Below, one piece after another: positions 13,993-61,900 of a DNA stretch of 64,000 bases (positions are counted from its first letter, which is position 1; every line of letters starts with the position of its first letter). The position numbers were made by a program, and so were the translations under genes. The notes beneath the pieces were generated by a model that was not told the origin of the DNA, searched no databases, and saw nothing but the letters and a program-made list of their open reading frames with translations. Source of the DNA: Antedon bifida (lineage: Eukaryota > Echinodermata > Crinoidea > Comatulida > Antedonidae); contig OY727095.1 in assembly GCA_963402885.1 (NCBI GenBank), forward strand, positions 12,405,001 through 12,469,000. Direction: 5' to 3'.

Positions 13993-14190
13993 CAGTGATG
14001 TAACGGTTATGAGCGCTCACTGGCTAAACCCAGATGCATATGGGACCCGTGAGCAGTGCCCAGAAGAAAAAACAGGCATTAAAATATGTCGGAAAAAAAA
14101 GCTTAAAACTCCTGAGGACCTCCAGTGTTGGAGGGCCACTTAGGTTTCCTAAACCAAGGGCCTCAGTTCTCTACATTATGCTATTGACCC
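13993..14190 (-). mobile_element. hAT-like non-autonomous element (family C), old copy
   Basis: It starts 'cagtgatgtaacgg' and shares the 'gagcgctcactggcta', 'caggcatta' and 'ggcctcag' blocks with 26466-26620, 48560-48755, 50233-50405 and 52586-52800. The far end is degraded. The overlapping open frames at 13922-14270 arise from this repeat. Confidence 0.65.
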
Positions 14191-26220: not shown

Positions 26221-27885
26221 TCTGAGAACAAAGGTGGTCTCTCTCAAATTAAATTTGTTAGACTGGACATTTATGGAAGATTTTGACAATTTAATTTATC
26301 TGCTTTTAATTGAAATGAAAAATATGGTTATTAGATCAAGTTCGTATAAACCCTATTTTATGCATCAAATACAATTTCCCACTATAAACCAAGTGTAACA
26401 AGTATTAACATCACTAACACATATACTTTGTATTAACTTTAACAACGTGCTGCATTTGAAACAACCAGTGGTTTAACGGCTATGAGCGCTCACTGGCTAG
26501 GGCCCCGGAGCTTATGGGGGCCCCTGAGGAAAATACAGGCATTAAATATGTCGAAAAGGGCTAAAAACGTCACTTGGGGTTCCTAAACAAGGGACCTCAG
26601 ACCTCTGCATTACGCCACTGAAAACAATTGTACTTGTGAATTGAGTGAGGGAAGTCATAGTGGTATTTGATAAGTTCTTTGTAGAGAAAATTTAATTGGA
26701 GAGAGAGAGATTTTGTATTTTGTTTGCTTATTGATAAGAATATTTCATGCTAATACCAGTGTATTTATTTGTACATCGTTTACACCATGTCTTTCAGTCA
26801 TTTGTTTTTGCTCTTTTCGTTTTTATTTTATTTTCAAAACTTGGATTCATGAAACATGGATACACAAGAATTTTTATAAACAAACTAAATTTACCATGAA
26901 TTGGTTTTAAAATGAATTCATTTCATTATTCCATTGCTTTCAAATGTTCTCTACATAATATTTTGTAATGTATTTATAAGCAAGCGATAGTTTGTAACAT
27001 TGTGTACTATAGGAGCTGCTTCAACTCAAATATGGTGCTAGCATAAAACGACAACAGCTCCCTCATCATTTAACCCGTTTATTCTATCTGAAGCAACTTG
27101 TCCATTTTTGTAGCCTTTTGTATGGTTTGAGCATTTTTTTTTTTTTTTAATGCAGTTTCTTCAGAGGAGAATTGTCGAAGTCCATCTACGAGGTGTGAAA
27201 CACATTCTTTGTTGAAGACTATACTGTAGTAGTTAAGTGGTACCATATTTTTTTGTGTAACAAGGTAGAGTTAACACCCTATCTTAGAATGGAATAGTCT
27301 GGTATTGTCATTATTTTTGAAAATATTTATTCCACAATTAGATAATGTGTAAAATACACCTTTGATATTTATATTGTTTACATTTCACTGGTACTTTTGT
27401 CCTGGAAGTAAATTGCAAAAGATAATCAACAAGATAATTTATAAAAACAATCTGTAATAAAATTATTAACACGTTTTGTTGACCTTGTTACAAGAGTAAC
27501 ATTCTCACTTCAACATTAAAATGACTTGCAATCTACAAAGTGCTTGTAATGGTATAGAGCTAGTGATTTATAATCATTGACTATTTTATTAAATTGTGTA
27601 CTGTATATGTATTATACGAGAGAACTGTGTTGTACGCAGATACAAATTGTTTTATTTATTGACGGTTGCATGGTCATTCAGAAAAAGAAACACTATTTGT
27701 ATAACTTGTGATTTTTGTAGGTAAAAATGAGATAAACTATGTTTTTATTTCTTATGTTAAAAAAAAGTATAAAATGTATATAATTTGGTTCTGTATTTTG
27801 CCTCTTTGCAATAGTGGGCATTGGTTATAATATTGTTAGCAAGAGATAGATGTGCATGTATAATAAAACTTTCTAAATTGTAATC
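26221..27885 (+). other. probable 3' UTR of the corepressor gene
   Basis: Sequence downstream of the TGA at 26218 lacks exons. A canonical AATAAA at 27862-27867 is the best candidate polyadenylation signal before the tandem-repeat district starts; an earlier AATAAA is near 27459. A hAT-like insertion (26466-26620) lies inside. The exact cleavage site cannot be seen. Confidence 0.45.
26466..26620 (-). mobile_element. hAT-like non-autonomous element (family C)
   Basis: The ends are 'cagtggtttaacgg' and 'attacgccactg'; the flanks GAAACAAC and AAAACAAT match at 6 of 8 positions, consistent with a decayed 8-bp target duplication as hAT elements make. Confidence 0.75.
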
Positions 27886-28261: not shown

Positions 28262-28675
28262 GGGGTGAAAAGTACTGAGGTTGGTTAGTACTGAGGTTGG
28301 TTGAGGCCACCATGGTTGAGGCCACACCTACCATGCTTGAGGCTACACCTACAATGGTTTAGGCCACACTTACCATGGTTTAGGCCACACCCACTATAGT
28401 TGGGCCATACCCACCATGCTTGAAACCACACATACCATGCTTGAGGCCACACCTACCATGGTTTAGGCCACACTCACCATGGTTTAGGCCAAACCCACTA
28501 TAGTTGGGCCATACCCACCATGCTTGAGGCCACACCTACCATGCTTGAGGCCACACCTACCATGGTTTAGGCCACACTCACCATGGTTTAGGCCACACCC
28601 ACTATAGTTGGGCCATACCCACCATGTTTGGGGCCACACCTACCATGGTTGGAGCCACACCCACTATAGTTAAAG
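28262..28675. repeat. ~21-bp tandem array (GGCCACACCYACCATGG-type)
   Basis: Units such as 'ttgaggccacacctaccatg' recur about 19 times with 'ggtttaggccaca' and 'actatagttgggccat' variants. The variants recur in blocks (a four-unit phrase repeats near 28340, 28460 and 28570), so a higher-order repeat is superimposed. Confidence 0.9.
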
Positions 28676-29419: not shown

Positions 29420-29667
29420 TGATTGTATAACATTTTATATTATTGTTACCAACAGTGCTTATTAGTATTATATACTTCTACTTGTACATGTATTTGTCTC
29501 CATTACCTTTGTGTGCTTAATTCAACTTTTATGAATGTGAACAACCAAATCTACTCCATTAGAATACTAAATTAATTTAATTAGTTTTCTTTACAATAAG
29601 TATTGTTATTTAAGAAAAATCCCATGTCAAGTTCAGCCAAGCTTGTGCAATTTACATACTTTTAAAA

Positions 29668-30170
29668 CCCCTTATTTTTCGCATCCCCATTAATCGCAAC
29701 CCCTTATTTTTCGCATCCCCATCAATCGCAACTCCTTATTTTTCACAACCCCTTTAATCGCAACACCTTATTTTTTGCTTCCCCATTAATCGCAACCCCT
29801 TATTTTTTGCATCCCCATCAATTGCAACAGATTATTTGTTGCATCCCCATCAATCGCAACCCCTTATTTTTTGCATCCCCATCAATTGCAACAGATTATT
29901 TGTTGCATCCCCATCAATCGCAACCCCTTATTTTTTGCATCCCCATCAATTGCAACAGATTATTTGTTGCATCCCCATTAATCGCAACCCCTTATTTTTC
30001 GCATCCCCATCAATCGCAACTCCTTATTTTTCACAACCCCTTTAATCGCAACACCTTATTTTTTGCTTCCCCATTAATCGCAACCCCTTATTTTTTGCAT
30101 CCCCATCAATTGCAACAGATTATTTGTTGCATCCCCATCAATCGCAACCCCTTATTTTTCCCAAATTTGA
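29668..30170. repeat. ~32-bp tandem array, ~16 copies
   Basis: The unit contains 'gcatccccatcaatcgcaac' then 'cccttatttt'. A sub-type with 'aattgcaacagattattt' alternates with the main type in the middle of the array, giving a dimeric period. Open frames of 69 and 122 codons across it are repeat artefacts. Confidence 0.92.
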
Positions 30171-31469: not shown

Positions 31470-32935
31470 ATGATATAGTAACCAGTAACCAAGATGTTTA
31501 AAACGCAATATATGGCCATTTATAGCAATATTATTGCATAATAACAGTATTTTAAAAAGTGCATATTTTGGCAATTTTTGGAAACAATTCCTGTACTGTA
31601 TTACAGGGACTTTTTCTAAAAGAGGCTAAATTTCGACCTTTTTATTTTTTGACATAAATGGTTCTATACGTATATAAGATGTTTAAAGCGCAACTTATGC
31701 GCATATATATCAATATTATTGCATAATAACAGTATTTTAAAATGTTCATATTTTGGCAATTTTTGGAAAAAATCCTTGTACTACAGTACAGGGATTTTTT
31801 TCAAAAAATTGCAAAATTTCGACCTTTTATTTTTGGACATACATTGTTACTATACGTCTATAAGATGTTTATAACGCAATATATGTGCAAATATAGTAAT
31901 ATTATTGCATAATAACAGTATTTTAAAAAGTGCGTATTTTGGCCATTTTAAAAAAAAATCCCTGTACAATAGTAGTGATTTTTTTTTAAATTGCCAAATT
32001 TCGACCTCTTTATTTTTTTACATAAATGGTTACTATACATATATAAGATGATTATAACGCAATATATGTACATATTATATATTATAGCAATATTATTGCA
32101 TAATAACAGCATTTTAAAAAGTGTGTATTTTCGCCATTTTTTAACAAAATCCTTGTACGATAGTACAGGGATTTTTTTTTTTAAATGTCAAAAATGTCTA
32201 CCTTTTTATTTTTTGACATAAATGGTTACTATACGTCTATAAGATGTTTAAAGCGCAATATATGCTCATATATAGCAATATTATTGCATAATAACAGTAT
32301 TTTAAAAAGTGCAAATTTTGGCCATTATTGGAAAAAATCCCTGTACTATAGTACAGGGATTGTTTTTGAAAAATGGCCAAATATCAACCTTTTTATTTTT
32401 TGACATAAATGGTTACTATACGTCTATAAGATGTTTAAAACGCAATATATGGCCATTTATAGCAATATTATTGCATAATAACAGTATTTTAAAAAGTGCA
32501 TATTTTGGCAATTTTTGGAAACAATTCCTGTACTATATTACAGGGACTTTTTCTAAAAGAGGCTAAATTTCGACCTTTTTATTTTTTGACATAAATGGTT
32601 ACTATGCGTCCATAAGATGTTTATAACGCAATATATGCGCATATATAGCAATATTATTGCATAATAACAGTATTTTAAAAAGTGTGTATTTTCGCCATTT
32701 TTGGACAAAATCCCTTTACTATAGTACAGGGATTTTTTCTAAAAAAGGCCAAATTTCGACCTTTTTATTTTTTGATATAAATGGTTACTATACGTCTATA
32801 AGATGTTTTAAGCGCAATATATGGACATTTATAGCAATATTATTGCATAATAACAGTATTTTAAAAAGTGCATATTTTGGCTATTTTTGGAAAAAATCCC
32901 TGTACTACTGTATAGTACAGGGATTTTTTTCAAAC
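31470..32935. repeat. ~187-bp tandem satellite-like array, eight units
   Basis: The landmark 'ataacagtattttaaaa' recurs at about 31541, 31726, 31912, 32102, 32291, 32478, 32664 and 32849 (spacings 185-190). Each unit has 'gcaatattattgc', 'atttcgaccttttt' and an inverted pair best preserved as CCCTGTACTATAGTACAGGG. Overlapping open frames between 31991 and 33001 jump frame from unit to unit and are not genes. Confidence 0.92.
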
Positions 32936-33957: not shown

Positions 33958-36900
33958 TTATGTGGCTGTTAAACGTTCTACATCAGTTTGCGTGATAGTA
34001 AGATCTTCCATCTGTCCTTTTGTAGATACAATCAAATTCTGTAAATAAAAAAGACAGACAAAATTAATCAAAAATAATGCATAGAATATCATTCAGGCTT
34101 GGAGTTTTCCCCCACAAAATTAAACAAATTTCAACCTCCATATAAACAAAATTTATCAATGAAGTTCTGAATTTTATGTGCAAGCATACCATCTCCGACC
34201 ATCTAGGTTTATCTAAATTTGCCTATTCCATAATCCTGAATCTGCCCCTGGATTGAAATTAATTGCCAGGAGTACAAAGGTAATGATATGAATTGGCAGA
34301 AGTACAAAGGTTATGATATGAATTGGCAGGAGTAAAAAGGTTATGATCTGAATTGGTAGGAGTACAAAGGTTATGATATGAATTGGCAGGAGTAAAAAGG
34401 TTATGATCTGAATTGGCAGGAGTACAAAGGTTATGAGATGAATTGGCAGGAGTACAAAGGTTATGATATGAATTGGCAGGAGTAAAAAGGTTATGATCTG
34501 AATTGGTAGGAGTACAAAGGTTATGATCTGAATTGGTAGGAGTACAAAGGTTATGATCTGAATTGGTAGGAGTACAAAGGTTATGATATGAATTGGCAGG
34601 AGTACAAAGGTTATGTTATGAATTGGCAGGAGAACAAAGGTTATGATATGAATTGGCAGGAGTAAAAAGGTTATGATCTGAATTGGTAGGAGTAAAAAGG
34701 TTATGATCTGAATTGGTAGGAGTAAAAAGGTTATGATCTGAATTGGTAGGAGTACAAAGGTTATGTTATGAATTGGCAGGAGTACAAAGGTTATGATATG
34801 AATTGGCAGGAGTAAAAATGTTATGATCTGAATTGGCAGGAGTAAAAAGGTTATGATCTGAATTGGCAGGAGTAAAAAGGTTATGATCTGAATTGGCAGG
34901 AGTAAAAAGGTTATGATCTGAATTGGTAGGAGTACAGAGGTTATGATATGAATTGGCAGGAGTACAAAGGTTATGAGATGAATTGGCAGGAGTACAAAGG
35001 TTATGATATTAATTGGCAGGAGTACAAAGGTTATGATATTAATTGGCAGGAGTAGAAAGGTTATGATATGAATTTGCAGGAGTACAAAGGTTATGATATG
35101 AATTGGCAGGAGTACAAAGGTTATGATATGAATTGGCAGGAGTACAAAGGTTATGATATGAATTGGCAGGAGTAAAAAGGTTATGATCTGAATTGGTAGG
35201 AGTACAAAGGTTATGATATGAATTGGCAGGAGTACAAAGGTTATGATATGAATTGGCAGGAGTACAAAGGTTATGATATGAATTGGCAGGAGTACAAAGG
35301 TTATGATATGAATTGGCAGGAGTACAAAGGTTATGATATGAATTGGCAGGGGTACAAAGGTTATGATATGAATTGGCAGGAGTACAAAGGTTATGATATG
35401 AATTGGCAGGAGTACAAAGGTTAGGCTATGAATTGGCAGGAGTACAAAGGTTATGATCTGAATTGGCAGGAGTACAAAGGTTATGATATGAATTGGCAGG
35501 AGTACAAAGGTTATGCTATGAATTGGCAGGAGTACAAAGGTTATGATATGAATTGGCAGGAGTACAAAGGTTATGATCTGAATTGGCAGGAGTACAAAGG
35601 TTATGATATGAATTGGCAGGAGTACAAAGGTTATGATATGAATTGGCAGGAGTACAAAGGTTATGATATGAATTGGCAGGAGTACAAAGGTTATGATATG
35701 AATTGGCAGGAGTACAAAGGTTATGATATGAATTGGCAGGAGTACAAAGGTTATGATATGAATTGGCAGGAGTACAAAGTTTATGATCTGAATTGGCAGG
35801 AGTACAAAGGTTATGATATGAATTGGCAGGAGTACAAAGGTTATGATATGAATTGGCAGGAGTACAAAGGTTATGCTTAATGAGTGATTAATAAAGATCA
35901 TACCTTTTCATTGCAAAGATGCAGCAAGCAAACAAATGCGATGGGAACACTAAGATTTTTAGCCAGACTCTTCGAAAGGTTTTCTGGAAGGTGTGTGTAC
36001 ATATCTTTGAACGATTTCTGATGATTAACTTTCTCTTTTCCTTCTTCAGTATGTTTATTTTTCTCATTTTCATCAATGTTTTCCTGAAAAAACAAGAAGC
36101 AATACATACACCATGGTATCACTGTGGAAATGATCATTGTAAGGGCAGGAGGGGGGGGGGGGGGGCGGCAGAGAAGATGGTACAACAGCAACATCATGTA
36201 TGTCTTCCAAATGAAATTGAATCAAGTGACATTTTGTAGCTATAATTGGAGTAAGAAACGGACAAAAGATTGAGAATATAAGGAGTAAATATCAGTAAAT
36301 ATGTGTAAAGCCTTGTCTACACTATCAAACTTTATGTGAGAAAAAATATGTGCCCAGACTATGATGATGATGTCATATCACTATACCATATTTGGGCACA
36401 TTACACTTTTTTTCCAAACTGGTTTGATAGTGTAGACAGAGCTTAAACGAGAAGTAGAGAGATGGTGTAGCAGATTTAAAGGAAGAGTAAGAAGTAAAAA
36501 TAAGAATTGTGAAGTAGGATAGGAGCTAAGGTCAGATGTTTTACCCAACACTGAAACAGAAATGAGTTACCATCAGCAACAAACACAAACATTATTAACT
36601 TGACAGAAGAGACAGGTGACAGCATTTACCTTTTCTTGTTCACTTACGTAGGTTAGGTACTTCCACATTATACCTTTTAATTTCTGTACATCCATTCTTT
36701 TGGCAGTCTTTGCATAAGGTATATTAATTTTTGCAACCTGATAAACAAATAAATAGTGTAATTAATTTACAGACCATTGTACCTAAAGTCACAAAGACCT
36801 GTAAGTAATAAAGTGTTTTTTGAGAAACTGTTGGTAATATAGTTGAACCTCCTGTAAGTAGCCATCCCTGGGATCGGAAAAGTTTCCGTTTTTTTAGGAC

Positions 36901-39900: not shown

Positions 39901-42900
39901 TTCTTTAAATATTGCTGTGAATTGATTTTATGATACTAGTGTAGAAAAGGGGTATTGAACTATAAGACATGTGTATTATTATTTTTGTCTACCAATTGTT
40001 TCAATAGATAAAATCTGTATAGGCCCACACCTACCTGACGATCAATTACTATTAGCGGTCCACAAACGCACCAACAAGCTGTTCGCATATTCTCCATACG
40101 CGGCCTAGCGCTACACTATTTTGACCAAGAAAAGACTACATATAGTAGCATATTTAAAATTTATTTTTTTGAAGTATTTGTTTTTAAACTTTAAGCATGT
40201 ATTAATTAACCAATATTTACTATAAAATTACATACAATTTTGTTGCCAATATTTTAAATTATTTGCTAAAATCTCCTAGTATTTACGTAATCTTAACGCT
40301 ATTGAATAGGCAGTGTGTCCATTCATGCATTAAAATGGCCTCAATATGTCCTACTGAGGAGCTTGTCGCTACTCCTTATTGTTAACTTACTCTATTTGCA
40401 CTTGTTGGTATAGCGCCCTCATTTGTCGGTAACTATAGGCTGGTTTGATTGTTTGAAATTCTTTACTAATAAAGTCTCAGTTAAGACCGCTATATTGCAA
40501 TCGACTTTGCTGAGAGGCTTAACTAAGACTTTCGCGAGGGGCTTAGGGCTTAGATCTAAGCCTAAGATAAAGTCTTTATATTGCAATCCGCCCCTAGTCT
40601 TTGGAACTACTACTACTAGCAGACATTGGCCATCTGATCAAAGAGTTCTAGTAGGCAGTAGAAGGCTCTTTATCAGCTGTAATACTGCATTGCAGCTGTT
40701 AGTTGGATGATCCTTCTTAAATAAAGTTGAATAAATAAACCATTAAATGATTACCTTTGGAAAAAGGTTTAACCTTCCAATGTTGAGGTCCAGCCCAGGT
40801 TGTGAACATACTAGGTTTGAAGTAGGAGTATTCACCAGGTTGTAGTGCTAACTCAAGACTTAGGTTATCCTTGCTTCCCATAGCCATCCTGGTATAAGAA
40901 ACAAATGTTGGTCATTTATTTAATGTTTTCAAATATATGTTCTTATTTTTTAATATGATAAAGAATAATATTACATATCCTATGTATATACGTGAACGTG
41001 ACATCACTTGTCTATTGCTTCTGTATATTACCACAATGGTGAATCTCTTACCCATCACGTTTCTCTGTAATCACTTGATGTTCTATGGTATCACCTATAT
41101 ATCCACCACTAACATCGTCGTCATCACTATAATCCCCGTCATTTAAATGGTCTGGTCCATAATCATCAATAGGAGTATCTTCTTCAATTGGTTCTGGTAT
41201 AGCATGTATATCAAAGGCTTTCTCTTCTTGTGCCATTTTGGAAAACGCTTCACTAAAATTGTCCTTAAATATGTAAGTAAATAAAAACATATTCAAATAA
41301 CAGTAGTTAAATTTGAATACAAATTTCCTTGTTTGTTTTGCCAATTTAAAATTTGATACTAATTTAATATTGTTATTTGTTATTATTTATACTGGGCAAC
41401 CTCTTCAGTCAAAGACTGTCTCCCAGAGAGCCCAGTTATGATCAGTGGTTGTGATGTACTAGTACACAGGCGGGGTAACCCCCTACTCGTCTCGAAAGAT
41501 GTACTAGTGCACATGAGCCAGATGTGTACACTGGACCTACGGTTTACAGTCCTTATCCGAGAAGACTTGTTCTACCACCAGAACCATGGAGCAAGTGAGC
41601 CTCGATGTTATGGCTACGTAATTACGGTTCCACTGTCTTAACTGCTCGGCCACTCACTCAATAAAAAAACCACAAATAATATCACTGAATGAATCATCAC
41701 ATGAATAAATCATTTCAGATAATAATGGTAGTATGTCTGTCTATAATAATCCTGATAAAAAAACTCGGTTGGGCCGGCAATTTCTCATTTGTACAAATGT
41801 ACATATTCACCGTTTATAAATTAATTTCCAGAATATCACTGGGTGAATTGTTTATACTGTATGTACCCTCCTGTTATTGGCGAATTTATTTTGCTGTTGG
41901 TTGGGTTTGGAAATAAAATAAAAACAAAATAAATGTATACCTACCTCACCATTTTCACTCCAATTTGTAAACTCAAAGTCTAAGAATGCCGGGCAGATTT
42001 GAAGTGATGAGAATTGAGCACAGTTGTAGTGACCTGCAGAAAACAAAATTAATAAAACACTTCTTAAATAATATTCTTTAGCAAACAAGTAAAAAATAAA
42101 AATAATTATATAATTTTTTGCACACTAAAAGGGACAAATGTACCTTTGATTTCTGTTAAATCAACCTGTTGGTCCTGTCTGTCTTGTACCTCTCCTGCCT
42201 GTTGTCCAATGCTGTCAATAATACAGGTTGAATCCAGCAACATCTCGCAGGTGTCATCACGTACTGGTAAATGATTCAGCAGTAGACTAAATGTACCGCC
42301 CTCATCAAACGCTGCTGCTGTCTTTTGGAACAAGGGATCAACCTTGAAACGGGCAAAAACACCTCTGAGGTTAGTTGCTAGTCACATGTAGTCATAAAAA
42401 CAATTACAGTCAACTTTTCAAAATACAGGACACCTTTGGGCTGGTCTAATATGTCTGGGTATTGGAAAATCTGGTATTCAGAATGTGTTTTAATGGTAGA
42501 AAAGAATTTGGGACCTTTACGACCACAAGAAAAGTCTAAACTTCTATTTTCAGTGAGTACGGTAGCGGGAGAGTTGACTATATTTGTATAACAAATTACA
42601 TTGCTACTATAGTTATAAAGTAGTGAATAGTGCTTACCTCAAATTCTAAATCAAATTTGTTGGTTGTGATTGTGTTAAGGTTGGTCACCACAGTGTTACC
42701 ATGTCGTGCCTTAAAGACAAATATTTCAAGATAATTATAAGAAAATGTACATAGACAGACTTTGAAAGTGGAGATCTTTAAAAATGCTAAAATATAAACT
42801 TACTTTTTTCTTCTTTGTTTCTTTGGCATCATCACCCTCAAGTTGTTCTATCAAGCAAAATTAAAAAACAAATGTGTTTAAATTTTTTGCAAACAATTTG

Positions 42901-44458
42901 AAATATGCACCGCTATCATATCTTAAAAAGGATGGTAAAATTGTGGGAAAAACAGACATGGATAAAACCTACAATGTTGGAATTGTAAAGTCGGAGAATG
43001 AGAATAATGTGCTGAGCCTAATTGGCTGAATTGCACACAATTTCCATTATTCTCCCTTTTCATTAGAGTCCCTTCATGTCATACCGTACAGCAAAACAGA
43101 GCTCATTTGGCAGGCCTAAGATGGACTGGAACACCAGGGTGACATGGTTGAACTCTGTGCTTTAAAGTGTACACGAGACAGAAAGACCAAACCAAAAAGA
43201 CTTGTTTTACCACCAGATATTAAGGAGAGCCTTGACCCTGCACCCATTTTGTAGCTATCTGTCTGTTGCTTGTATCCTTAGGCAAGATACTTTACTTACA
43301 TTTGCCTCTTTCTACCCAGGTGTATAAATGGGTACCCGGTTAGATCAAGACACAACTTTGTGCTGATTACTAGCTGCATTATGGGAGTATGTTTCCATAT
43401 GCGTTTGATCCCAAAAAAATGACTGGGGTAATAATGTGAAGCGCTTAGAAGCATTGTGCAATAAGAGCTATATAAGAAGAAATATTATTATTACAAACAG
43501 TACTCGACCACTCAACTCATTGTAGGCAATAACTATGCATGAAATAAACAAACCTTTTTGATTTGATTTATCAGAATGGCCTAGACCACTAAGGACCTTG
43601 TAGGTATCTGCATGTACAGCATCTACTCTCCCTGCATAGATCTTGGCACTGGCATCAAGTGTACAGCTTGCCATCTAAAGTTGCAAATAAAATCAAGTAT
43701 TCATAGTAGTGGAAATACTAGTGTACTGTCATAGTTCATTTATTATAGTGATTATTGAGTCATTTCTACACACCATTTATACACACAAATACAATTATGG
43801 CAAGAAATTACATTTCGTGACAATTGTTTTAACAAACCTGAAAGTTTGTAAGATCTCCCATCTTCTCCTTCAGCATTTCAGACATATAGTCAATCAGATG
43901 TAAACCAAATGCATTCTTTGCGTTGATTTTCTACAAAAAAAATACCATGGTTAAATGTAATGTGTTTGTCCTCAGTTGAGGAAATTGAGATTAGACCCTC
44001 TATGGACCCGCGACAAAACAGCTTTACATCCCATCTGAAGGATGAGGTAAAGCATCTTTCCTTAGGATTAAGCAATGCTATTAGTGTGACATATGGCTCT
44101 GTATATGATATGATTTGTTTACCACCAAACCCCAAAAAAAAACACTTACATTTTCAGCCGACAATTTGATACAGCTTGAATAGTGTTCGGTCAGTTGGTC
44201 AGTGGATAAACCATTTAAAGGTAGCGACCGCCTCCTATTGGTTGGTGTAGCTGGACTCTGTAACTGTCGCTGAAGTTCCAATACCTTAGACCTACGTCGT
44301 TCTCGTCGCTCAGCTGCATCATCGTTCACGGACACATTCACAAAAGTTGTGGCAATGGATGCACTTCCTAATCTTGAATGTACTCGTCTTGTGGATGGGG
44401 AGATGTACTCAGAAGTTGACGTACGCTTTATTGATCTTGGATTGTTTGGTGTCGACAT
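33958..44458 (-). CDS. NCAPH: condensin I complex subunit 2 (NCAPH, kleisin)
   Basis: Complete 16-exon gene, 709 residues (human about 741). Exons in transcript order: 44150-44458, 43838-43930, 43554-43674, 42804-42847, 42638-42709, 42144-42342, 41945-42033, 41052-41263, 40755-40888, 39073-39176, 38174-38296, 37820-37921, 37123-37281, 36630-36737, 35904-36083, 33958-34038. All junctions are GT-AG and phases agree. The kleisin N-terminal region (about 80-175) has [11 protein letters not shown] and [21 protein letters not shown], which contacts SMC2. The middle has [15 protein letters not shown], the acidic DNA- and HEAT-subunit-binding region and [11 protein letters not shown]. The C-terminal winged helix (about 588-700; [16 protein letters not shown]) contacts SMC4. 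The protein closes the condensin I ring that compacts mitotic chromosomes. The start is the only Met ahead of the basic N-terminus. SFR1 starts 1.1 kb away on the other strand. Confidence 0.97.
34261..35878. repeat. 30-bp minisatellite, 54 units, in the last NCAPH intron
   Basis: Every unit starts AATTGG(C/T)AGG and continues AGTA(C/A)AAAGG and TTATGA(T)(A/C)TG-type words. All 54 copies keep an exact 30-bp register with no net insertion or deletion. The minus strand is open across the whole array (562 codons, 34213-35901) as a hydrophobic ten-residue repeat; the plus strand is open only in the right part. The left half mixes sub-types; the right half is nearly uniform. The frame is not the NCAPH frame: reading on from the exon ending at 35904 meets TGA at once. 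Confidence 0.95.
36307..36446. mobile_element. palindromic MITE family A, copy 5
   Basis: The ends are 'ccttgtctacactatcaaac' and 'gtttgatagtgtagacagag'; the interior is 'atgatgatgtcatatcacta'. It lies in an NCAPH intron. Confidence 0.92.
36890..37070. mobile_element. foldback-like element with CGCAACG words (family E)
   Basis: The right end 'gtgacgc'-type words and 'actagtgggaacaaagctt' match, in inverse, the left end of the element at 53379-53512 ('aagcttggttccaactagt'). The interior is rich in 'cgacgcaa' words. It lies in an NCAPH intron. Confidence 0.5.
37325..37580 (+). repeat. SINE-like dispersed repeat (family D)
   Basis: It carries 'tccacaacgacaggggct', 'gaccagtacaccggggtaac', 'ttcgaaagatgtagtggg', 'gccagatgtgtacactggac' and 'gagaagacttgt' in family order. 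It lies in an NCAPH intron. Confidence 0.75.
38741..38847. mobile_element. foldback hairpin element
   Basis: The arms pair as 'tgcacaagtc'/'gacttgtgca', 'ttagtggaga'/'tctccactaa', 'gcgcact'/'agtgcgc' and 'gggtatt'/'aataccc' around a short loop near 38792. A second inverted pair around it ('ttttataacgtgggt' near 38852 and 'acccatgttataaag' near 39020) suggests a larger nested element in the NCAPH intron. Confidence 0.7.
39475..39545. repeat. retroposon tail fragment
   Basis: 'tatagcgcttataagcaag' and 'caatgcgctgtac' are typical of animal SINE/LINE tails; related to the tail near 9180. Confidence 0.4.
39665..40596. mobile_element. inverted-end element(s) with GATTGCAATA termini (family F)
   Basis: The left end 'ctagggccgattgcaata' and the right end (inverted) 'ctaggggcggattgcaatat' are near-identical, followed on both sides by 'aaagrctt' and repeated 'cttagacttaagccc'-like words. 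Secondary ends near 39770 and 40485 allow either one 930-bp composite or two ~115-bp MITEs. No transposase. It sits in the NCAPH intron between exons 40755-40888 and 39073-39176. Confidence 0.6.
41385..41665 (-). repeat. SINE-like dispersed repeat (family D), full-length-looking copy
   Basis: 'cttcagtcaaagactgtctc' through 'ggggtaaccccctactcgtc', 'ctcgaaagatgtactag' and 'gccagatgtgtacactggac' to 'ccactcactca'. An AT-rich 'ttattatttatact' tract adjoins the left end. It is intronic in NCAPH. Confidence 0.78.
42407..42579. mobile_element. pogo/Tigger-like MITE with CAGTCAACTTTTC end
   Basis: The left end CAGTCAACTTTTC (after TA) and right end 'gggagagttgact' are imperfect inverted repeats. A diverged partial relative is at 59830-59912. 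It lies in an NCAPH intron. Confidence 0.55.
43070..43495 (+). repeat. SINE-like element, family D body plus a generic SINE/LINE tail
   Basis: The head has degraded family-D words ('cgtacagcaaaacagagctc', 'gtgcttta'). The tail has 'ccttaggcaagatacttta', 'gtataaatgggtacccggtt', 'gtgaagcgcttagaa' and 'gagctatataagaa', then (att)n, a typical animal retroposon 3' end. It is intronic in NCAPH. Confidence 0.75.
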
Positions 44459-45596
44459 GATTCTTTAAGCTATTAAACAAAAACTTTTGTCATTTTTTTC
44501 TTATTATGTTGAATAAAATGTTATTTATTCTAAAAATAGAGTACAAGGAAATTATTAAATAATAATATTATTATTATATAATAATATAGGCCTAGGCAGC
44601 CTATTTTTTTTTTTTTCATTCTCGGGATGCACATTTTTTTTTTTTTTTTCATTGCCTATTATAATGATAGTACTACTAGCCTAATAGCTAGGCCTAGACA
44701 AGGTCCTACAGGCTACTCTACCGACCCTGACTCTAGCCTAGGCCTACTTTACCAACATACACCTGAGATGAGAGCCTTTGCTGGGTCTTGGTTGGTAATC
44801 CGCTCGCTAGGCCTAGCCTAGCTAGTAGTAGGCCAGGCGGCCTAGAAAAGATATCAGTATCGCGCCTAAAAAGCTAAGCAGCAGGACCTTCGATAAAAAC
44901 CAAATAATGACAATATATTACACAATAATCAACGATTAATGCCCTAGTCATGCATTAGGTTAAAAGCATGTAATTATAAGTAATAATTGTTTACAATTTT
45001 GTTTTTCATTCAAAATAAACAAATCAAAAACTAGCGCCGTTACAAGTATCCCATACTGCATTGCGAATCCGTGACGAGTTATTGAACTATTTGAACGACT
45101 GCCGTATTTATAAAATAGATTTTATACACGCCACGCCTACTATTGAGACGTGATCAGTCAACCAGAACCATCGGCGGTATGTTTGATTTTTCTGTTTACA
45201 TAATGATACACCGTTTTGTTGTAATTTCTCTCCATTTTTTATGTTGTATAATGAACATTTATAGTTTTGAGCTAATTCCTATTTCATAGGCATCAATATG
45301 GTCTAAAAGGTATAGCCTCAGTATAGGCCTACCTCGAGGTATCTATTTTACTAGCTAGTAGAGGCCTAGCTAGGCCTAGTAGGCCTACCTACTACTCAAT
45401 CAAAGTAAGAGTAGCCAACAGACACAGACAGAGAGGCCTCGAGCCACGGCTCCCAGACACTACAGGCTACACTAGCCTATGCTGGCCAATCCAAAAGAGG
45501 GCTAGGCTATAGGCCCTATATACAGTAGTAGTAGGCCTAGTCCTAACTAACCGGATAGCTAGCCTACTATTACGAGACTAAAATACGGACAATACA
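44459..45596. promoter_or_regulatory. divergent NCAPH-SFR1 promoter region
   Basis: 1138 bp separate the two initiator codons. The interval holds locally GC-richer blocks dense in 'taggcctag'/'aggcctac' words at 44590-44870 and 45290-45560 and a CpG-bearing core near 45030-45180. I see no TATA box at a defensible distance. Bidirectional promoter use is inferred from geometry only. Confidence 0.5.
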
Positions 45597-46666
45597 ATGG
45601 AAAAACAAACTCGGCAGCAACAACCATGTCATCACGCTCCCGAGAAACTCTCCAACTCAAGCAGAAAACGAACAACTTTGAGCATAGTGGATAAAAACAA
45701 ATCAAAGAAATTAAAGCAAGAGCAAGAAAAATGCAGTGAAGATTTAATTGCTGAACGAACAACTTTGCAAAAACTAGTGTCCCAAAAACAAGAGACATTG
45801 AGGCAATTGAGATTAGTAAAATTATACAGGGCAAAGGTATTTAATTCTGATCACAATTCCCCTCTAAATTGTCAGAAATTACAATGCAAATGAACATCAA
45901 TAGCCCAACAGAATAACAAATTTCCTGCATAAAGTAGACATTTACAATTTCACAACAGTTTGATTTAAAGCTCTGTCTACACTATCAAACTAGTTTGAAA
46001 AAAGTGTGATGTGCCCAAATATTGTAAAGATATCCCCAAATATGTTAGTGATATGACATCATGTCCATATATGGTGACATCACATTTTTTGTCACATAAA
46101 GTTTGATAGTGTAGACAGAGCTTAACATCCTAAATAACAATTGTGAAATACCACTGTAAATGTCAGCCTATATAGTACTAATTTAGCATCTTTCACACAG
46201 AAAATGTAATTGTATACCAAGTCCATATTCTAATCTCTTTTAGTTTATGTATTCAACATAATCATCATCTTCCTATACTGTGCAGAACCTCTTTGGAGTA
46301 TAGTCGCACATGGGTTGGTCACGTCATTTATGCAGCATTATTTATTTTATTATGTTTGTTATATTTTCAATTACTGTACCACTTTGGAAATCAGTGCACT
46401 AGTACTGAAAGTGCTTGCAGAATAAAGAAAGAATAAATAGTAATAATAATAATAATAATTAAAGCACATTTTTTCTTTTTATTTAGAATAATCTACCAGA
46501 ACTTCAAATTCTTATTGACAAATGGAGAGAAGCCTGCCAACAGTCATTGACAGAACTGCATATGCAAATGCCAACGCCAAAACCAAGCATCAACGATCTC
46601 ATTCAACTGTGGCATTTAGATGCGAACTTGTTGCAGTACAAGAAAGATGAGGACTCATTTCAATAG
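45597..46666 (+). CDS. SFR1: Swi5-dependent recombination repair protein 1 (SFR1/MEI5)
   Basis: Two exons, 45597-45836 and 46487-46666, join in phase 0 to give 139 residues, shorter than human SFR1 (about 245). The N-terminal ~40 residues are basic and low complexity; about 41-78 form a likely coiled coil (EKCSEDLIAERTTLQKLVSQ..); LRLVKLYRAK|NNLPELQ, KWREACQQ and the DLIQLWHLDANLLQYKKDED tail match the conserved C-terminal half. SFR1 pairs with SWI5 to stabilise RAD51 filaments in homologous recombination. The start is the first Met after stops in the upstream sequence. A family-A MITE (45967-46123) lies in the only intron. AATAAA at 46728-46733 is the likely poly(A) signal. Confidence 0.93.
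45967..46124. mobile_element. palindromic MITE family A, copy 6 (best preserved)
   Basis: The ends are GCTCTGTCTACACTATCAAA and the inverse TTTGATAGTGTAGACAGAGC, both perfect. The interior words are 'gtgatgtgcccaaat' and 'gatatgacatcatg'. It lies inside the SFR1 intron. Confidence 0.95.
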
Positions 46667-47013: not shown

Positions 47014-48926
47014 TCATTTTGGTAAAATGTCTATCTCAATGTTTTTTAAAAGCTTTTGTAAGAATGTCTTTGAAAGTAATGGTTTAGGATCAAAATCATC
47101 TTCTGGTAGAAACAATTTAATGGCAGATCCAAACCACCAATATGTTTCATCTTTTGACGGAATGTTGCCTTCCTGTCCATACCACTTATGTGACTCAGCC
47201 GTTTGGTCACCAGTATCCGGGAACCAGTTGTGTGATGTCACTGGTTTGTGTGTCTGCTGTCCAAACCATTTGTGATCTTTACTAGGATCCTTTTTATCTG
47301 TGAACCATGTATGGGATTCTGTCGGACTCGCACCATCTGCATACCACCTATATGTTGGTTTAATCAGGTCAGGGAACCACTTATGTGACGGTGAAACACC
47401 CAACACTGGATAGTTGGCACCATTCACTAACGGTGTTGGTTTCTGTGGGGCTGTCGACTTGGCAGCAAGTGTCGTCATAATTTGTGTCTTCGACGTTACC
47501 AGCATTGGATTCTCAGTTGTAATCAAATGTGTTATCTTTTCTCTTGGTAATGGTGTTGGAATTGCTGGTACTGTTGTTACCGGCACTGGTTCCTTGGCGA
47601 CATCTGGGAAGTACCAATGTGTGCCATCTGGAAGGGTAATTATAACCGAGGTGTTGAATAACCATTTAAATCCATTCCACCATTTTGTTACAGAAGTCTG
47701 TCCTGACCTTGTCGTCAATGGCGACCTTGGTTTCTTGGTTGTTGGCACTCGTGTGGCTCCAACTGTAGGCTTTTGTTCTAATGGCACGGACGACCAAATT
47801 GAAGATGCTGAAATTCCCCCAGCCATGTGATCTTGACGCTTCTTGTGAACTTTCTTTGATTTCCTTCTCTGTCTCTTCTTCTTAGCACGTTTCTTTTCTG
47901 CAGATGTCATACCCTTTGTTGGTTTGTGTTTACGTTTTTTGCGCCTTCCTCCTATCATAAAACTTTGCCTCTTTTTTTCGGCAGATGTCAGCTTCTGTCC
48001 TCCGTTTCCAACTTTTCGCATATTATCATTCACCATTTTTACTTCTGAAATACGTTTTGTGTTAACGTGAATATTACCTTGATCTGTGTACACTTCATAA
48101 CCAATCAGGCTCAACAACTTAGCAAATGCACCGTCTCCAGTCATCTCGGTAGGTGTTACAGGCATTGTATTGTCAGTGTTGTTTTTGCACTTTATCGTAA
48201 AACTGGGCTCTCCAGATTTCCCGGCATTAAAAACGTACCAACAACTACGTTTTTTCCTTTTCAGTTTGAAAACGAGTTTGATATTTTGTCTCGATTATTT
48301 GTCATTGTTTTGTTGGTGTTTACATTAACTTGTACTTCAGTATCTTCATTCTTGTTAACAGGTTTAACAATATTTTCACGTGCTCTTTCAAGAAAACAAC
48401 GTTTGCATACATTTCCTTCATTTGTCCTTTCATCCTAAAAAAACAACAAACAAGATATCAATAGACATTCGTTAAATTAAATCAAATATTAAATTTGGTC
48501 CCTTACTTGGTAATAAGTTTGTTGGCTTTACTTGAATGAGTGTCAAACTATATGTATAACAGTGGCGTAACGCAGAGGCCGGAGGCTCCTGGATTAGGAA
48601 CCTTAGGGGCTCTCCAACGCTGGAGGCCTTGGCAGTTTTTAGCCTTTTTCAACATATTTTAATGCCGGTTTTTTCCTATGGGCACTGCTCAGGGGCATCC
48701 ATAAGCTCCCTGGGTTTAGCCAGTGAGCGCTCATAGATGTTACGCCATGCCACTGATGTATAAGTGTCTTCCTGGGTCTATGGTATATGGTGGTTTGTGC
48801 CAAGATAAATCATTTTATTTGTTTGTACATCATACCAACCTGTTTATCCTGGTGACGGTACGTTGCTTTACCTTCTGCTAGCAAAATCTTCACTACCAAC
48901 ATGGTAAGCAGTATAAACAGTCTCAT
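47014..48926 (-). CDS. unrecognised, probably secreted protein with W-F/Y repeats
   Basis: I do not recognise this gene. Coding exon 1 is 48840-48926: MRLFILLTMLVVKILLAEG, a good signal peptide, then ATYRHQDKQ. It likely begins at 48958 with 5' UTR after a TTTCAG acceptor. Exon 2 starts at 48434 after a strong poly-T acceptor and reads DERTNEGNVCKRCFLERAR.. until TGA at 48261-48263. A second frame, one base back, is open from 48294 to the stop at 47014 and includes a dibasic KRKKR, a 383-codon stretch from the Met at 48165, two copies of TSAEKKR, a very basic segment (73-110), Ser/Thr/Pro-rich linkers and aromatic motifs HWYFPD (183), HKWFPD (261), YRWYAD (272), HTWFTD (285), HKWFGQ (298), HNWFPD (312), HKWYGQ (326) and YWWFGS (342). 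The frame break means a pseudogene, an assembly error or an unseen intron. It could be a matrix or mineral-associated protein; that is a guess. Confidence 0.65.
48560..48755 (+). mobile_element. hAT-like non-autonomous element (family C) with intact 8-bp target duplication
   Basis: The left end is CAGTGGCGTAACGC and the right end TTACGCCATGCCACTG. The flanks are identical 8-mers ATGTATAA at 48552-48559 and 48756-48763. An 8-bp duplication with a CAGTGGCG-type end is characteristic of hAT transposons. 196 bp, no coding sequence. It lies in the intron of the secreted-protein gene. Confidence 0.88.
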
Positions 48927-50187: not shown

Positions 50188-50451
50188 TGCTTGGGAAACC
50201 AATGCATCCAGGGAAACCCAATGCCTGGGAAATGTGGCGTAATGCAGATGTCTGAGGCCCCTGGTGTAGGAACCCTAAGAGGCCTCGGGCGTATTTAGGT
50301 TTTTTGGCATATTTTAATGCCTGTTTTTTCTAATTGCCACTTCTCAGCCCCCCCCCCCCCCCCCCATAAGCTCCACGGTCCCTGGGTTGAGCCAGTGAGT
50401 GCTCATGCTTGGGAAACCAATGCATCCAGGGAAACCCAATGCCTGGGAAAT
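50188..50451. mobile_element. hAT-like element (family C) bracketed by 47-bp direct repeats
   Basis: The element body at 50233-50405 matches 52586-52800 closely. A 47-bp sequence containing 'cttgggaaaccaatgcatcc' and ending 'gcctgggaaat' lies immediately on both sides (50188-50234 and 50405-50451). This is far longer than a target duplication, so the copy arose by another route. Confidence 0.75.
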
Positions 50452-52173: not shown

Positions 52174-52929
52174 CTAAAACAGAAGTGCATTTTTCTTGAG
52201 ATCTCGTTGCTTCCATTTTGGTAAATCACTAAATTGGTTAAACCCCATTTTGAATGCCCTGTAGAAATCGCGTGTTGAAAGATGAAGCTACAGTAAAACA
52301 AAGAAATTAAGTTATAAGAAATTAGACATTTTAAAACAAAAAATATATATACATTGTAAAACGGATTCATATTAATAATAAATTTCATATTAATAAAAAT
52401 ATATCATAGATGCAAGTTCTTAATTGCAGCCATTATTTGTTGATTAACATTATCTATTCAACTAAGGCTTTTGAATTGTAAAAGTTCTGTTTTTAACGTA
52501 TAACAGTATCAGAGTGGATAGGAAGGACGGGGAGGAATGGAGGAGGAGAGGGCATCTCATTTTAAAAGGTAAATAATGGAATAAACAGTGGCGTAATGCA
52601 GATGTCTGAGGCCCCTGGTGTAGGAACCCTAAGTGGCCCTCCAATGCTGGAGGCCTCGGGCGTATTTAGGTTTTTTGGCATATTTTAATATTTTAATGCC
52701 TGTTTTTTCTACTTGGCACTTCTCAGCTCCCCCCCCCCCCCCCCCATAAGCTCCAGGGTCACTGGGTTGAGCCAGTGAGTGCTCATAGCCGTTACACCAT
52801 AATACATCTTGTTTTCCCTCACAAAATATCTTTTTTAAAACATATATAACAATATACCTCCAAATGTTTTCTGTCCACATCTTTTGGAAGTCTGTAAGTC
52901 GTTGTGAGCAATGATTCTAGTGGATAAAC
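52174..52929 (-). CDS. ABLIM: villin headpiece exons of ABLIM
   Basis: 52858-52929 (24 codons) and 52174-52287 (37 codons plus TAG) join in phase 0. The core has the conserved hydrophobic Phe residues, LPKWK and the C-terminal KKNALLF, matching the F-actin-binding headpiece fold. A family-C hAT-like element lies in the intron between them. Confidence 0.95.
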
Positions 52930-55900: not shown

Positions 55901-58900
55901 AAATAACTACTTCATTCACCACTCACCTTCGGCTATAAACTCTTTAAATTTGACTGGAATAGAATGAACACTAATTTAAAGCAAAATTTAGATTTCTTGT
56001 ATTTTAAATTCCTCATCATTCGTAGTCATGCTCATGTATCTTTTACATTCAATTTGCTCAAATGCAGTTTTTTTCCAAGCACATTGTAGACATATTTTTA
56101 GTATTTAATTTTAATTAATTATTTTTTCATAGTTTATTTAGGCACTATCTATTAATCCATTGTTTAATGTCTTTAGTGTATCTTTTACATTCAATTTGCT
56201 CAAATGCAGTTTTTTTTCAAGCGCATTATAGACATATTTTTAGTATTTAATTAATAATTTTTCAGAGTTATTTAGGCACTATCTATTATTGTTTCATCCA
56301 TAGAGATATTATATTAATAATCTTTATGTTTAAACATAATGCTTCAATAAAATGATGCATTATTTCGAGTTAATTATCAAATGCAATTAATTACAGTAGA
56401 ACCTCTTATTTGGGACACCCCTATTCAGCTGACATCCCTATTGAAGGGACACTTTCTCGTTAAACGAAAGAGGGGCAATAGTTTAACACCAAAGTCAACC
56501 TCTATTTAAGAAACACCATTATTAAGAGAACAATAGAAAGAATTCTACTGTAATTTATCATATTACAAAAATAATGATGACTATTAAACATAACAAAAGC
56601 ACTTTTCAAACACATTAGTGTGTGCTCAAACTAATCACTTGACTCTCATGCTATGGCACAATTCCAAGGCCTACAGTATTACGCAATCAGTGGTATATTG
56701 AGATATAGTTCATTAATTGTAATCCTGTAAAATAACTTAAGCTCTGTCTACACTATCAAACTTTATGTGACAAAAAACTGTGATGTGCCCATATATGGAC
56801 ATGATGATGTCATATCGATACCATATTTGGCCATATCACCACCATATTTGGTCTAGCTGAGAGCTTGACGAAAATGTCTTGATATGTAAGTTATTTTACT
56901 GGTTTACAATTAATGAACTATATCTTACTAAAACCAGAGAAAAATAGTTTCACTGAATTCTGTATCATGGAATCGTTTATGGTTAAGGAAAAAATAAAAA
57001 CAATTTTTGTGTAAAAACAAACAAAAAAAGATTCTGCAAAAACATACATAAACAGGCTTATTTCTGATTTTATTTAACGATAATGTTTCAATCAGTATTC
57101 AAACATTTTTAAGCATGCCACTAAGACTTCAGATGTAAGAATAAAAATAATAGTGAGCACAGAATGCAGGAATGTTAATACATACAATTTAATTTATTAT
57201 GAAATTAAAATAAAACAAAAAATCATAAATTTGGTAATGGACAGAAAACAAGCAGGATTGAATGAATGACAAACAGTTGTCATGACAACCCTCACCTGAT
57301 GACCATCGGTTTCTAAGAGCATCTGTAAACAAAGAGATGTCACAAACGTAAGATTGGACATTTTTATAGAGACGGGAAGAAGTGTTAAAGATGTACTTTC
57401 CACCAAAAACATGAAAATTGAAGATCAGATTTTGAATAGGCCATTTTATAGTTTTTACGAAAGTTAATCACTTCCGTAGAAAAAATAACACGAAAAAATA
57501 ATGTTTTTACTTATAAAATGAAAAAATAAATGATTAAATTCAACCCAATTTGACTATTTTTTTGCTTTAAATTATATTTTTTCAGGTAAGTATTTTTTTT
57601 TTTAACCAGTTTTTGGTCAAAGTGAATAACTATTAACTATTAAAATGGCAAATTAAAAAAAAAAATGTTTAGGGGGACAATATGTCTTTAAGAGAATAGT
57701 TTGGATCTTAGAATAGCGAAATCCCCAGAATGCTTGTGGGCAACAGATGATCGTCTGCAGGACGTATTCGTATTCAAACTGTTTTTCTTATGGTGGTACC
57801 AAACTATAGACATTAGTCTAGATACCGTACTTGTATCCGGGCTAGTATCACTAAGAGTTTAACACACACATTTTCAAGATACAAAATTAATAGTAATCAC
57901 TCACTTGATTGCGATGAGGTTGAATATCGCAATTGTCGTGCTGGTTCGGATTTCCCCGAGGGCGTACGTGAAACAGTACGAGGATCAATAACTTCTTCTT
58001 TCTTTTTCTCAAACTCTTCTCTGAGAATCATTTGACCTAGTGGAGAAGCGACCCTTGACACATCATTTTCAAATTCTTCCTCCTCCTGCTTGGCGAGGAA
58101 CCCTTCAGACTTGCTACGAAAGCGATCAAAGTACACTTGCGGAGCTGGAAAGTCCTCTCGTTCAATCTTAGCAGGTACGCCCTCTGCTGGTTTTGATGAG
58201 GCTGGGTACTTTGATTCGTTGATGATGCTGTTTGATAGATCTTTGTCCAAATGAGGGGGCTGTTTAGTCATTAATAATTCAGACATCTTAGCTGGTTTTG
58301 GTTTCATTCCTGGAGAGAAGATGACCATTAAATTAGAAAACAAACTACTATTAAAAGACAATTTTTTTTAAACATATTGCGGACACCAATCTGTAATTGA
58401 GACACCGCCCACAATATGATTGGTTCAAACATGGTTATATCTAACTTTTATGTCTGGAGAAAAAAAAATGTTATCTTAAGTTTATTTATTATTAAAAGAA
58501 TGAAATTGGAAGGTCAATTAATTTATTGTTCTGATTTATGTTTTAACATAATATCTCTATGGTTGTATCAAGAAGACTTATTTTCTTTAATTTACACGAA
58601 AAAATAACTTACTTTTGGCAAGCCAAGAATCAGTTTCCGTTTTGTTCGGAGTGATAAAATGTTGCGGATTTGAATCTAAAAATAAATATTCAAAAAATAT
58701 TGATAAATAAAACTTTAATACACTTTATGATATTGTATTGAACTGATTTATTATGGTAATAATAGAATTTATGAAATGTCAAAATAGTATTGATAAAGAA
58801 CCGTAAGTTTGTACCCCCTAGAGTTTTAGTCATTTCCTGAAACTTATACCTAACAATTGAAGCAACATGGACATGATGCTTGATAATGTTATTATAAAGT

Positions 58901-61900
58901 AAACAACATATTAAAATAGCAAGATGAAAATTGACATACAAAACAACTGAATTGAACACATTTGTGTCCATATTTACATACATAAAAACACCAACAAATT
59001 TAATAAGGAGCATAACATTTAAACATATAAAATGGTTTGAAAAAGAAAAAATCTACAAATGCATGCAAAGATAAACAAAATTGAGGTGATTATTTACCCA
59101 TTCTGGTGAATTCTGGCAACATTGTGAAACGTCAAAGGATATGGTGATAATTAAACATTAATAAAAAGACAAAAAAAACATCACAAAAAGTGTTACTAAT
59201 GTGTGCTATCAACTACAACCAAATGTATGGTAACTAAACATGCAATGGATAAAAATAATAGGGTAATTAAATTTTTAAAGATGTATTGTCCTCCAAAAAC
59301 ATGAAAAATGAAGATAATTAAATCAGACTTTGGTTATTTTGTAGTTTTAATAAAGTTAATCACTTCTGTAAAAAAAAAACAATCAAAAACCCATTGGCTG
59401 GCAGCCAATTTGACTATCTTTTGCTTTCAATTACAGTTTTTTCAGGTAAATACATTTTTTTAAATCCAATTTTTGGTCAAAGTGGATAACTATTATGGGA
59501 CATTAAAATAGCATAATCAACAAAAAAATGTTTAAGAATTTTTTTTTTTTGGGGGGACAATACATCTTTAATATACAACTAATCTTTGGTTAAATTTTAT
59601 CTAAAAATGTGTAAAATAAACCCTATATTCTCAATATTCTATGGTATGTGGTGACAGGCAAATTATTATCTTTCAACTCTCTCAAAACTATAAACATCTT
59701 TTTGAAAGTTTTGTTTTCAGAAATTGTTTTAAGCCTTGTTTCACACTGGACCTGAAATTGTAACTTTACCCTTTTAATAGAATAGTTAGCTTTACAGAGG
59801 CAGTGGTTAATGTAGCTGGCAACTTGGAAAATTTGGACCTCAAACAAATTCTGGTTTTGGGAAAATTTCTGATTTTCAACAAGTACGGTATTGAAAGAGT
59901 TGAATGTAAATAGTATTTATGTATAGGTCTATCTATATACAGCATATCTAATGTATGTAACAATGTAAAAAGTACCTAATAAATTACACACGGTGTTATT
60001 ATCAAACATGCACCTCTATTTCTAATGAACAGCTAACAAAATAATTTTTAAAAATCAGTTTTTTAAACAGTTCATAAATTCAAATTTGTCTCTCACCTGG
60101 TCTATGGAAATTTGGAGTTGTTGGTGCGTCAGGTGACCTTGGGATTCTGGGGTACAGGTAAGAGCCGGTGTTGGTTTCATGGGACAGGTAACTGTTGGTG
60201 TAGTTCAGTGCTTGAGGGTTTAAACTGTTGGAAGAACCTCTTGATCGTGGCATGTTGTTGACATTAAGAGAAAATGCCTGAGACAGAAAAGATTTAAAAA
60301 TCTATAGAAATGACAAGCACTATATGGGCCTTCTTTCAAATCTATATTATAATTGCACTAAAGCAGAAAGTTTGTTACTCTCACTGCCTAAACTGCATGA
60401 CCAATGCTTGCGCCATTTGAGCTGAGGTACTTTTTTGGAATTAGGCAAATTTCTTTGCAGTGTACAGAATACCTTTTGATAATTCCAGGACATTTTCACC
60501 TATGAAGAATTTTAAATGGTGCCTGTTTAAATCGTCTAAAAATACATTCTTACATAAGGATTATTCTGATTGTAGTCATACAGTACAGCATTTTCCTTTT
60601 TACTTGCTTCTGAAAACTAAAAAAAAAATGTTTTTCATTAATAAATCGTTTGAATTGCTAAATAAAAATAATCAACGATAAGTAGCTCTGAGTGATCATG
60701 CCTGTAGCAAGATTACCCTGGATGATAGCAGGATTACCCTGGATGATATTAAGATTACCCTGGATGATATTAAGATTACACTGTATGATAGCAAGATTAC
60801 ACTGCATGATAGCAAGATTACACTGTATGATATTAAGATTACACTGTATGATATTAAGATTACACTGTATGATAGCAAGATTACCCTGGATATAAGATTA
60901 CCCTGGATATAAGATTACCCTGGATGATATTAAGATTACCCTGGATGATATTAGGATTACACTGTATGATGGCAATATTACCCTGGATGATATTAAGATT
61001 ACCCTCTGGATGATACTAAGATTACCCTGGATGATATTAAGATTACACTGTATGATAGAAAGATTACCCTGGATGATATTAAGATTACCCTGGATGATAG
61101 TAAGATTACACTGTATGATATTAAGATTACCCTGCATGATAGCACGATTACCCTGGGTGATATTAAGATTACCCTGGATGATATTAAGATTACCCCGGAT
61201 ATTAAAATTACCCTGGATATTAAGATTACATTAGATATTATTAAGATTTCCCTGGATGATATTAAGATTACCCTGGGTGATATTAAGATTACCCTCGTTG
61301 ATAGCAAGATTACCTTGGATGATAGTAAGTAAATTCATGTTATTGTCCCCAGGATCATAAGTAGATTTAAGAGGGGAGGGATGAGCAAAACATATCTTTA
61401 TATAGAGTACATGCTTATTACATGAATATTCTTTGAAATTTGGGGGAATGCATATGTATATATAGATAGTAGTAGTACATAGATAGCGTAAGTACTTTAC
61501 AAGTAGATCAGACATATTATTGTACATTATTTTGTTCTAGTTTATCTTTTCTACTTGTAGTTCAGATTACATTTATTTATAGAATTCAATACATATTGAT
61601 TAGCATTTTAAGTTGATTACTCTACTTTAAGAAGTGAACTGATTAATACAAATTTAAGAATGTTTTCTCAAAATTGAGTACAAACTGAGCATGCTCCTAA
61701 TATATTGGTTTGTGTTTGTACTTACTTTATCAATATAGCCATTGGCTTTACTGCAGTTGGGATGCCAAATTTCAGTACCTGAAAATAAAACCACAACAAT
61801 TTTTCCATATACACATTTTTATATATAGAAGAAATAAAGATTTGATTTGATTTTGAGTTGATTTACTTTTTATTATTAATTATATATCAATGATAATGAC

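Follow-up and report, generated by a model that had tools for sequence, protein, structure and literature searches.

The predicted gene and its surroundings

The window, that is the whole 64,000-nucleotide stretch of DNA analysed here, contains a large open reading frame on its minus strand, which potentially encodes a protein with a very basic block and an array of aromatic motifs (Table 1). In 40 simulated 64-kb windows (order-2 Markov), the longest frame reached 195 codons, as against 426 codons at 47014-48294. When codon use was scored with a measure trained on neighbouring exons (1,082 codons), this frame obtained 0.10 bits per codon, the highest value of the six frames. For comparison, 309 open frames of 174 bases taken from other parts of the window had a median score of -0.24, with the 95% point at 0.20; since the 426-codon frame falls inside this range, its codon use alone is no proof of coding. 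The frame includes 14 Trp and two Cys residues and is followed by an AATAAA signal. It looks like a real protein gene. The gene is single in its own genome as far as searched, as no second copy was detected among the best candidates of an exon-by-exon search.

Table 1. Positions in the window of the predicted gene, its parts and the neighbouring genes.
Feature	Position	Strand	Remarks
psq-domain gene	24427-26220		87.8 bits, cut-off 20.4
Condensin subunit 2 (NCAPH)	44081-44464		22.1 bits, cut-off 29.8
SFR1/Mei5	45582-46666		22.6 and 27.5 bits, cut-off 28
AATAAA	46878-46883	-	133 nt beyond the stop codon of the 426-codon frame
Open reading frame	47014-48294	-	426 codons + stop; first in-frame ATG is codon 44 (48165)
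C-terminal tail	47017-47124	-	residues 391-426; short predicted helix, low confidence
Array of seven (H/Y)-x-W-(F/Y)-x-(D/Q/S) motifs	47125-47385	-	residues 304-390
Ser/Thr/Pro-rich linker region	47395-47814	-	residues 161-300
Variant motif HWYFPD	47602-47619	-	residues 226-231
Basic block	47815-48024	-	residues 91-160; 29 K/R and 3 D/E in 70 residues
TSAEKKR, copy 2	47887-47907	-	
TSAEKKR, copy 1	47968-47988	-	
Candidate second exon	48261-48434	-	acceptor at 48434; phase differs from the large frame
Candidate first exon, signal-peptide-like N terminus	48840-48926	-	starts MRLFILLTMLVVKILLAEG
AbLIM	57897-58367		29 bits, cut-off 29

Except for the psq gene, all the neighbours were identified at or under the curated cut-off. 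SFR1, which ends at 46664-46666, lies tail to tail with the 426-codon frame. The frame at 41048-41386, which has no family match, resembles by eye a further part of NCAPH. The window also bears a tandem array at 34254-35875 (30-base unit, 54 copies, 95% matches) that is open in several frames, and further arrays at 11363-12194 (46-base unit), 28307-28671 (21-104), 29666-30159 (32), 31491-32931 (186) and 60709-61329 (21).

The genome comprises 315,563,634 bases in 27 contigs, 11 of which exceed 19 Mb; the chromosome number of feather stars is 11. A contig of 15,844 bases (C27) is the mitochondrial genome. Its COX1 gene makes a sensible protein when AAA is translated as Asn and ATA as Ile (e.g. 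NNMSFW and VNTTFFDP, judged against the conserved forms), a code used by echinoderms and also by flatworms. This code agrees with the echinoderm or hemichordate origin implied by the preliminary description. The COX1 strand has 46.7% T and 26.4% A, and ND1, ND2 and ND6 (genes named by eye) are located on the opposite strand. According to PMC10478607, the mitogenome of the feather star Poliometra prolixa is 15,916 bases long, its T content being 44.9% and its A content 24.0%. The genome is therefore assigned to an echinoderm on its code, and to a feather star on its resemblance.

Motif array, basic block and predicted structure

The pattern [HY]xW[FY] starts at ORF residues 304, 315, 328, 341, 355, 369 and 385, seven occurrences in all; 20,000 composition-preserving shuffles contained 0.04 on average and never more than 2. 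Likewise, the frame has 11 W[FYW] pairs (shuffle mean 1.2, maximum 7; 20,000 shuffles). The gaps between the seven motif Trp residues are 11, 13, 13, 14, 14 and 16 residues, the last unit being measured on its second Trp. The preliminary description had thus counted seven motifs at the right spacing, but its "eighth" is the variant HWYFPD, which departs from the pattern in that H and W are adjacent, with no intervening residue. The residue numbers given there (261-347 and, for the eighth, 183) match ORF numbering from Met44, so they describe a protein that lacks the signal peptide.

Within the units, the residue two positions before Trp is His in five of the seven cases and Tyr in the other two, while S/T tends to precede H (column P 0.005) and D/Q to occupy the third position after W (column P 0.002). 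The array spacers were more alike than those of 4,999 out of 5,000 shuffles, an effect driven by the S/T before H and the D/Q after the aromatic pair. Owing to this regular spacing and these shared flanking columns, the array has the look of a unit of about 13 residues whose copies have decayed.

That the diverged repeats keep their aromatic pair, as had been proposed, was borne out by comparing the seven units with one another in all 21 combinations, a comparison between copies inside one gene rather than between species. At the H, W and F/Y columns, synonymous differences were many (pS 1.00, 22 differences over 22 sites) and replacement differences few (pN 0.12, 20 over 167), although this low pN is partly circular because the columns were chosen after the fact for being conserved. 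The pN/pS ratio was 0.12 for these columns and 0.89 for the other six (pS 0.65, pN 0.58); all nine columns together gave a pS of 0.72 and a pN of 0.41. Since the synonymous sites of the H, W and F/Y columns are near saturation, the likeness of the units does not come from recent copying. Judged from these substitution patterns, the repeats are old, with H, W and F/Y kept.

The very basic block with its duplicated TSAEKKR, also part of the preliminary description, was recovered; its two copies spell the same peptide with differing nucleotides (pS 0.73 and pN 0.11 over eight codons). A Cardin-Weintraub-type site was found only once, as TKKPRS at residue 186, outside this block. The Ser/Thr/Pro linkers were found as described, these residues making up 37% of residues 161-300 and 26% of the whole protein.

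AlphaFold2, run without an alignment, gave mostly low confidence, with pLDDT below 50 for residues 159-426 and values of 25-43 (blocks of ten) from residue 161 onward; a single-sequence prediction of this kind is a poor test of disorder. A helix was predicted in the basic block at residues 131-157 (pLDDT 81-83) and three strands in residues 1-40 (pLDDT 63-71). On this model the gene product is probably largely disordered.

In line with the preliminary description, the protein matched no known family in the libraries searched: searches of Pfam, NCBIfam and PDB sequences returned weak matches only, all of which were rejected. No relative was detected in the bacterial, archaeal and viral contigs searched. 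Apart from the gene itself, its own genome, searched at E up to 1 with 18 of the candidates scored, yielded two minisatellites, and both were rejected as mimics of the array. These minisatellites, L002 1363-2136 (C16) and L014 978-1878 (C10), have translations with repeated QWYG or AWFPLG that resemble the array. A choline-binding or cell-wall-binding repeat was rejected, as no Pfam repeat profile matched at E up to 10, a search in which filters drop weak matches. The single match listed by Pfam at E up to 10 was a non-significant neuropeptide profile (E 3.3); a neuropeptide precursor was rejected, with just one dibasic pair in residues 300-392. An Argonaute-binding GW protein was likewise rejected, the frame having no GW or WG despite its 14 Trp. 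No account of such a protein was found in a literature search on the motif and related ideas, which mostly covered journals other than subscription journals and, for longer result lists, the best matches.

The start of the gene

A candidate exon for the claimed signal peptide is present. Region 48926-48840 encodes MRLFILLTMLVVKILLAEGKATYRHQDKQ, with a hydrophobic start like that of a signal peptide (judged without a dedicated predictor) and an A at -3 relative to its ATG. This signal-like exon has donors at 48871 (score 3.9) and 48839 (score 1.9), and the acceptor at 48434 (score 8.4) ranks first among the 137 AG in the region. These scores come from matrices of approximate textbook values; for reference, splice sites chosen visually at the exon boundaries of four neighbouring genes (SFR1, NCAPH, AbLIM and psq) gave 2.0-5.2 for donors (n=4) and 2.2-9.1 for acceptors (n=4). 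With donor 48839, the candidate second exon is open as far as 48261 and would contribute two more Cys. With strict cut-offs, no GT-AG chain joined the signal-like exon to the large frame. Relaxed cut-offs yielded 1,050 such chains, and in all 20 of the best models inspected (14 best and six best one-intron models) the last acceptor scored -1.2 or lower, some of these models having good sites elsewhere, such as the donor at 48506 (score 4.4), which follows an exon overlapping a transposable element. Secretion is therefore the weak point, as the candidate signal exon has no convincing splice join to the frame. A hAT-like MITE is located at 48560-48755 in the presumed first intron, flanked by an 8-base target-site duplication, ATGTATAA (48552-48559 and 48756-48763); similar stretches, 66-84% identical, occur at 14000-14181, 52586-52800, 26474-26620 and 50234-50406.

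The break between exon and frame may be due to a short, weak intron, to an indel or to initiation at Met44. In the last case the product would be intracellular, with the basic block directing it to the nucleus or nucleolus and the W-F/Y array serving as linear motifs for a partner. This is possible but rather doubtful. Met44 is the first in-frame ATG, the block is indeed very basic, the signal exon is not convincingly joined, and the region 48294-48211 ahead of Met44 has a chance-like codon score of -0.25, lower than that of one reverse frame. However, the same strand carries a signal-like exon and the region's strongest acceptor a short way upstream, and the AlphaFold2 strands in residues 1-40 weakly favour translation ahead of Met44. 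It is unlikely that a formerly secreted protein has recently been broken, or the assembly affected by an indel, through a length change near 48294-48261 that shifts exon 2 relative to the phase of the large frame. The two frames are open together over just that interval, and in a sliding window the codon score is best for the exon-2 frame at 48425-48320 and for the large frame from 48230 on, with no frame consistently best in between. Nevertheless, the large frame runs for 426 codons without a stop, and an unrecognized short intron would explain the same break.

It is highly improbable that the product is a very diverged relative of the vertebrate FGF-binding proteins, with their signal, basic part, Cys-Trp strand pair, helix and Ser/Thr/Pro tail. 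The order of AlphaFold2 strands and helices in residues 1-80 is reminiscent of the plan of this family. The neighbours SFR1, AbLIM and psq/LCOR-like would also fit, FGFBP genes lying near such genes on human chromosomes 10 and 4. In the accessible part of PMC2446394, on Fgfbp linkage in fish, LCOR, SFR1 and ABLIM are all unnamed. Against this relationship, PF06473 gave no match in a Pfam profile search (HMMER filters drop weak matches) or in a search of the own genome, for which the 14 control genomes were equally silent. Alignment scores with human FGFBP1 were equalled by 2,295 of 5,000 shuffles for the N terminus and by 127 of 1,000 for the whole protein. Moreover, mature human FGFBP1 has ten conserved Cys, compared with two in the 426-residue frame.

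A putative multivalent protein and its analogues

At present the locus is that of an orphan gene whose start is unproved. The best explanation, put forward tentatively, is a disordered polyanion-binding "sticker" protein, probably extracellular, encoded by a real gene, single as far as searched, in an echinoderm that most resembles a feather star. The basic helix would bind a polyanion such as a sulphated glycan, and the seven His/Tyr-x-Trp-Phe/Tyr motifs would act as weak aromatic stickers on disordered Ser/Thr/Pro spacers. Through these stickers the protein could attach multivalently, either to glycan or by sticker-sticker contacts, within an extracellular matrix, mucus or adhesive. Given such a helix and stickers, it would most likely serve as a multivalent component of one of these materials; secretion, polyanion binding and sticker function are all inferred, as is the matrix, mineral, glycan or polyanion binding suggested in the preliminary description.

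This sticker reading is favoured by the length of the ORF, the motif count beyond that of shuffles, the conserved aromatic residues and the likeness of the spacers. The low pLDDT together with a basic helix, the failure to find a second copy and the analogy with squid beak proteins point the same way, as do the signal-like exon with A at -3 and the strong exon-2 acceptor. It is weakened by the unconvincing splice join, the partly circular pN and a codon score at the level of chance frames, and also by the position of the Cardin-Weintraub-type site outside the basic block and the single-sequence nature of the AlphaFold2 prediction. A bolder proposal, which is plausible only at a low level, is that of a secreted protein specific to the feather-star (or echinoderm) lineage, whose S/T-H-x-W-F/Y-x-D unit of about 13 residues would be an undescribed glycan-binding or self-association repeat accompanied by a polyanion-binding helix. 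Feather stars are placed as sister to all other living echinoderms in PMC11336682.

Among known systems, the FGF-binding proteins share the general plan of a basic region, a Cys-Trp strand and a Ser/Thr/Pro linker, but are not known to have a counterpart to the aromatic array. Bacterial choline- and glucan-binding repeats carry Trp plus Tyr/Phe followed by Asp, sometimes Gly, as does the present array, whose period is about 13 residues and theirs about 20. The squid beak proteins have in common with this protein a repeated His plus aromatic motif in several tandem copies, and disorder, which is predicted here. In PMC6884462, a squid beak protein is described as disordered, with His plus aromatic (GHGxY) repeats that drive phase separation and self-associate through His and Tyr, and replacement of His by Lys stopped this self-association. 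In contrast to GHGxY, the motif here is (H/Y)xW(F/Y), spaced 11-16 residues apart, and a strongly basic block is added; the analogy implies no sequence relation. If the protein is secreted and multivalent, a Trp-based repeat made by an animal would join the known disordered "sticker" proteins.
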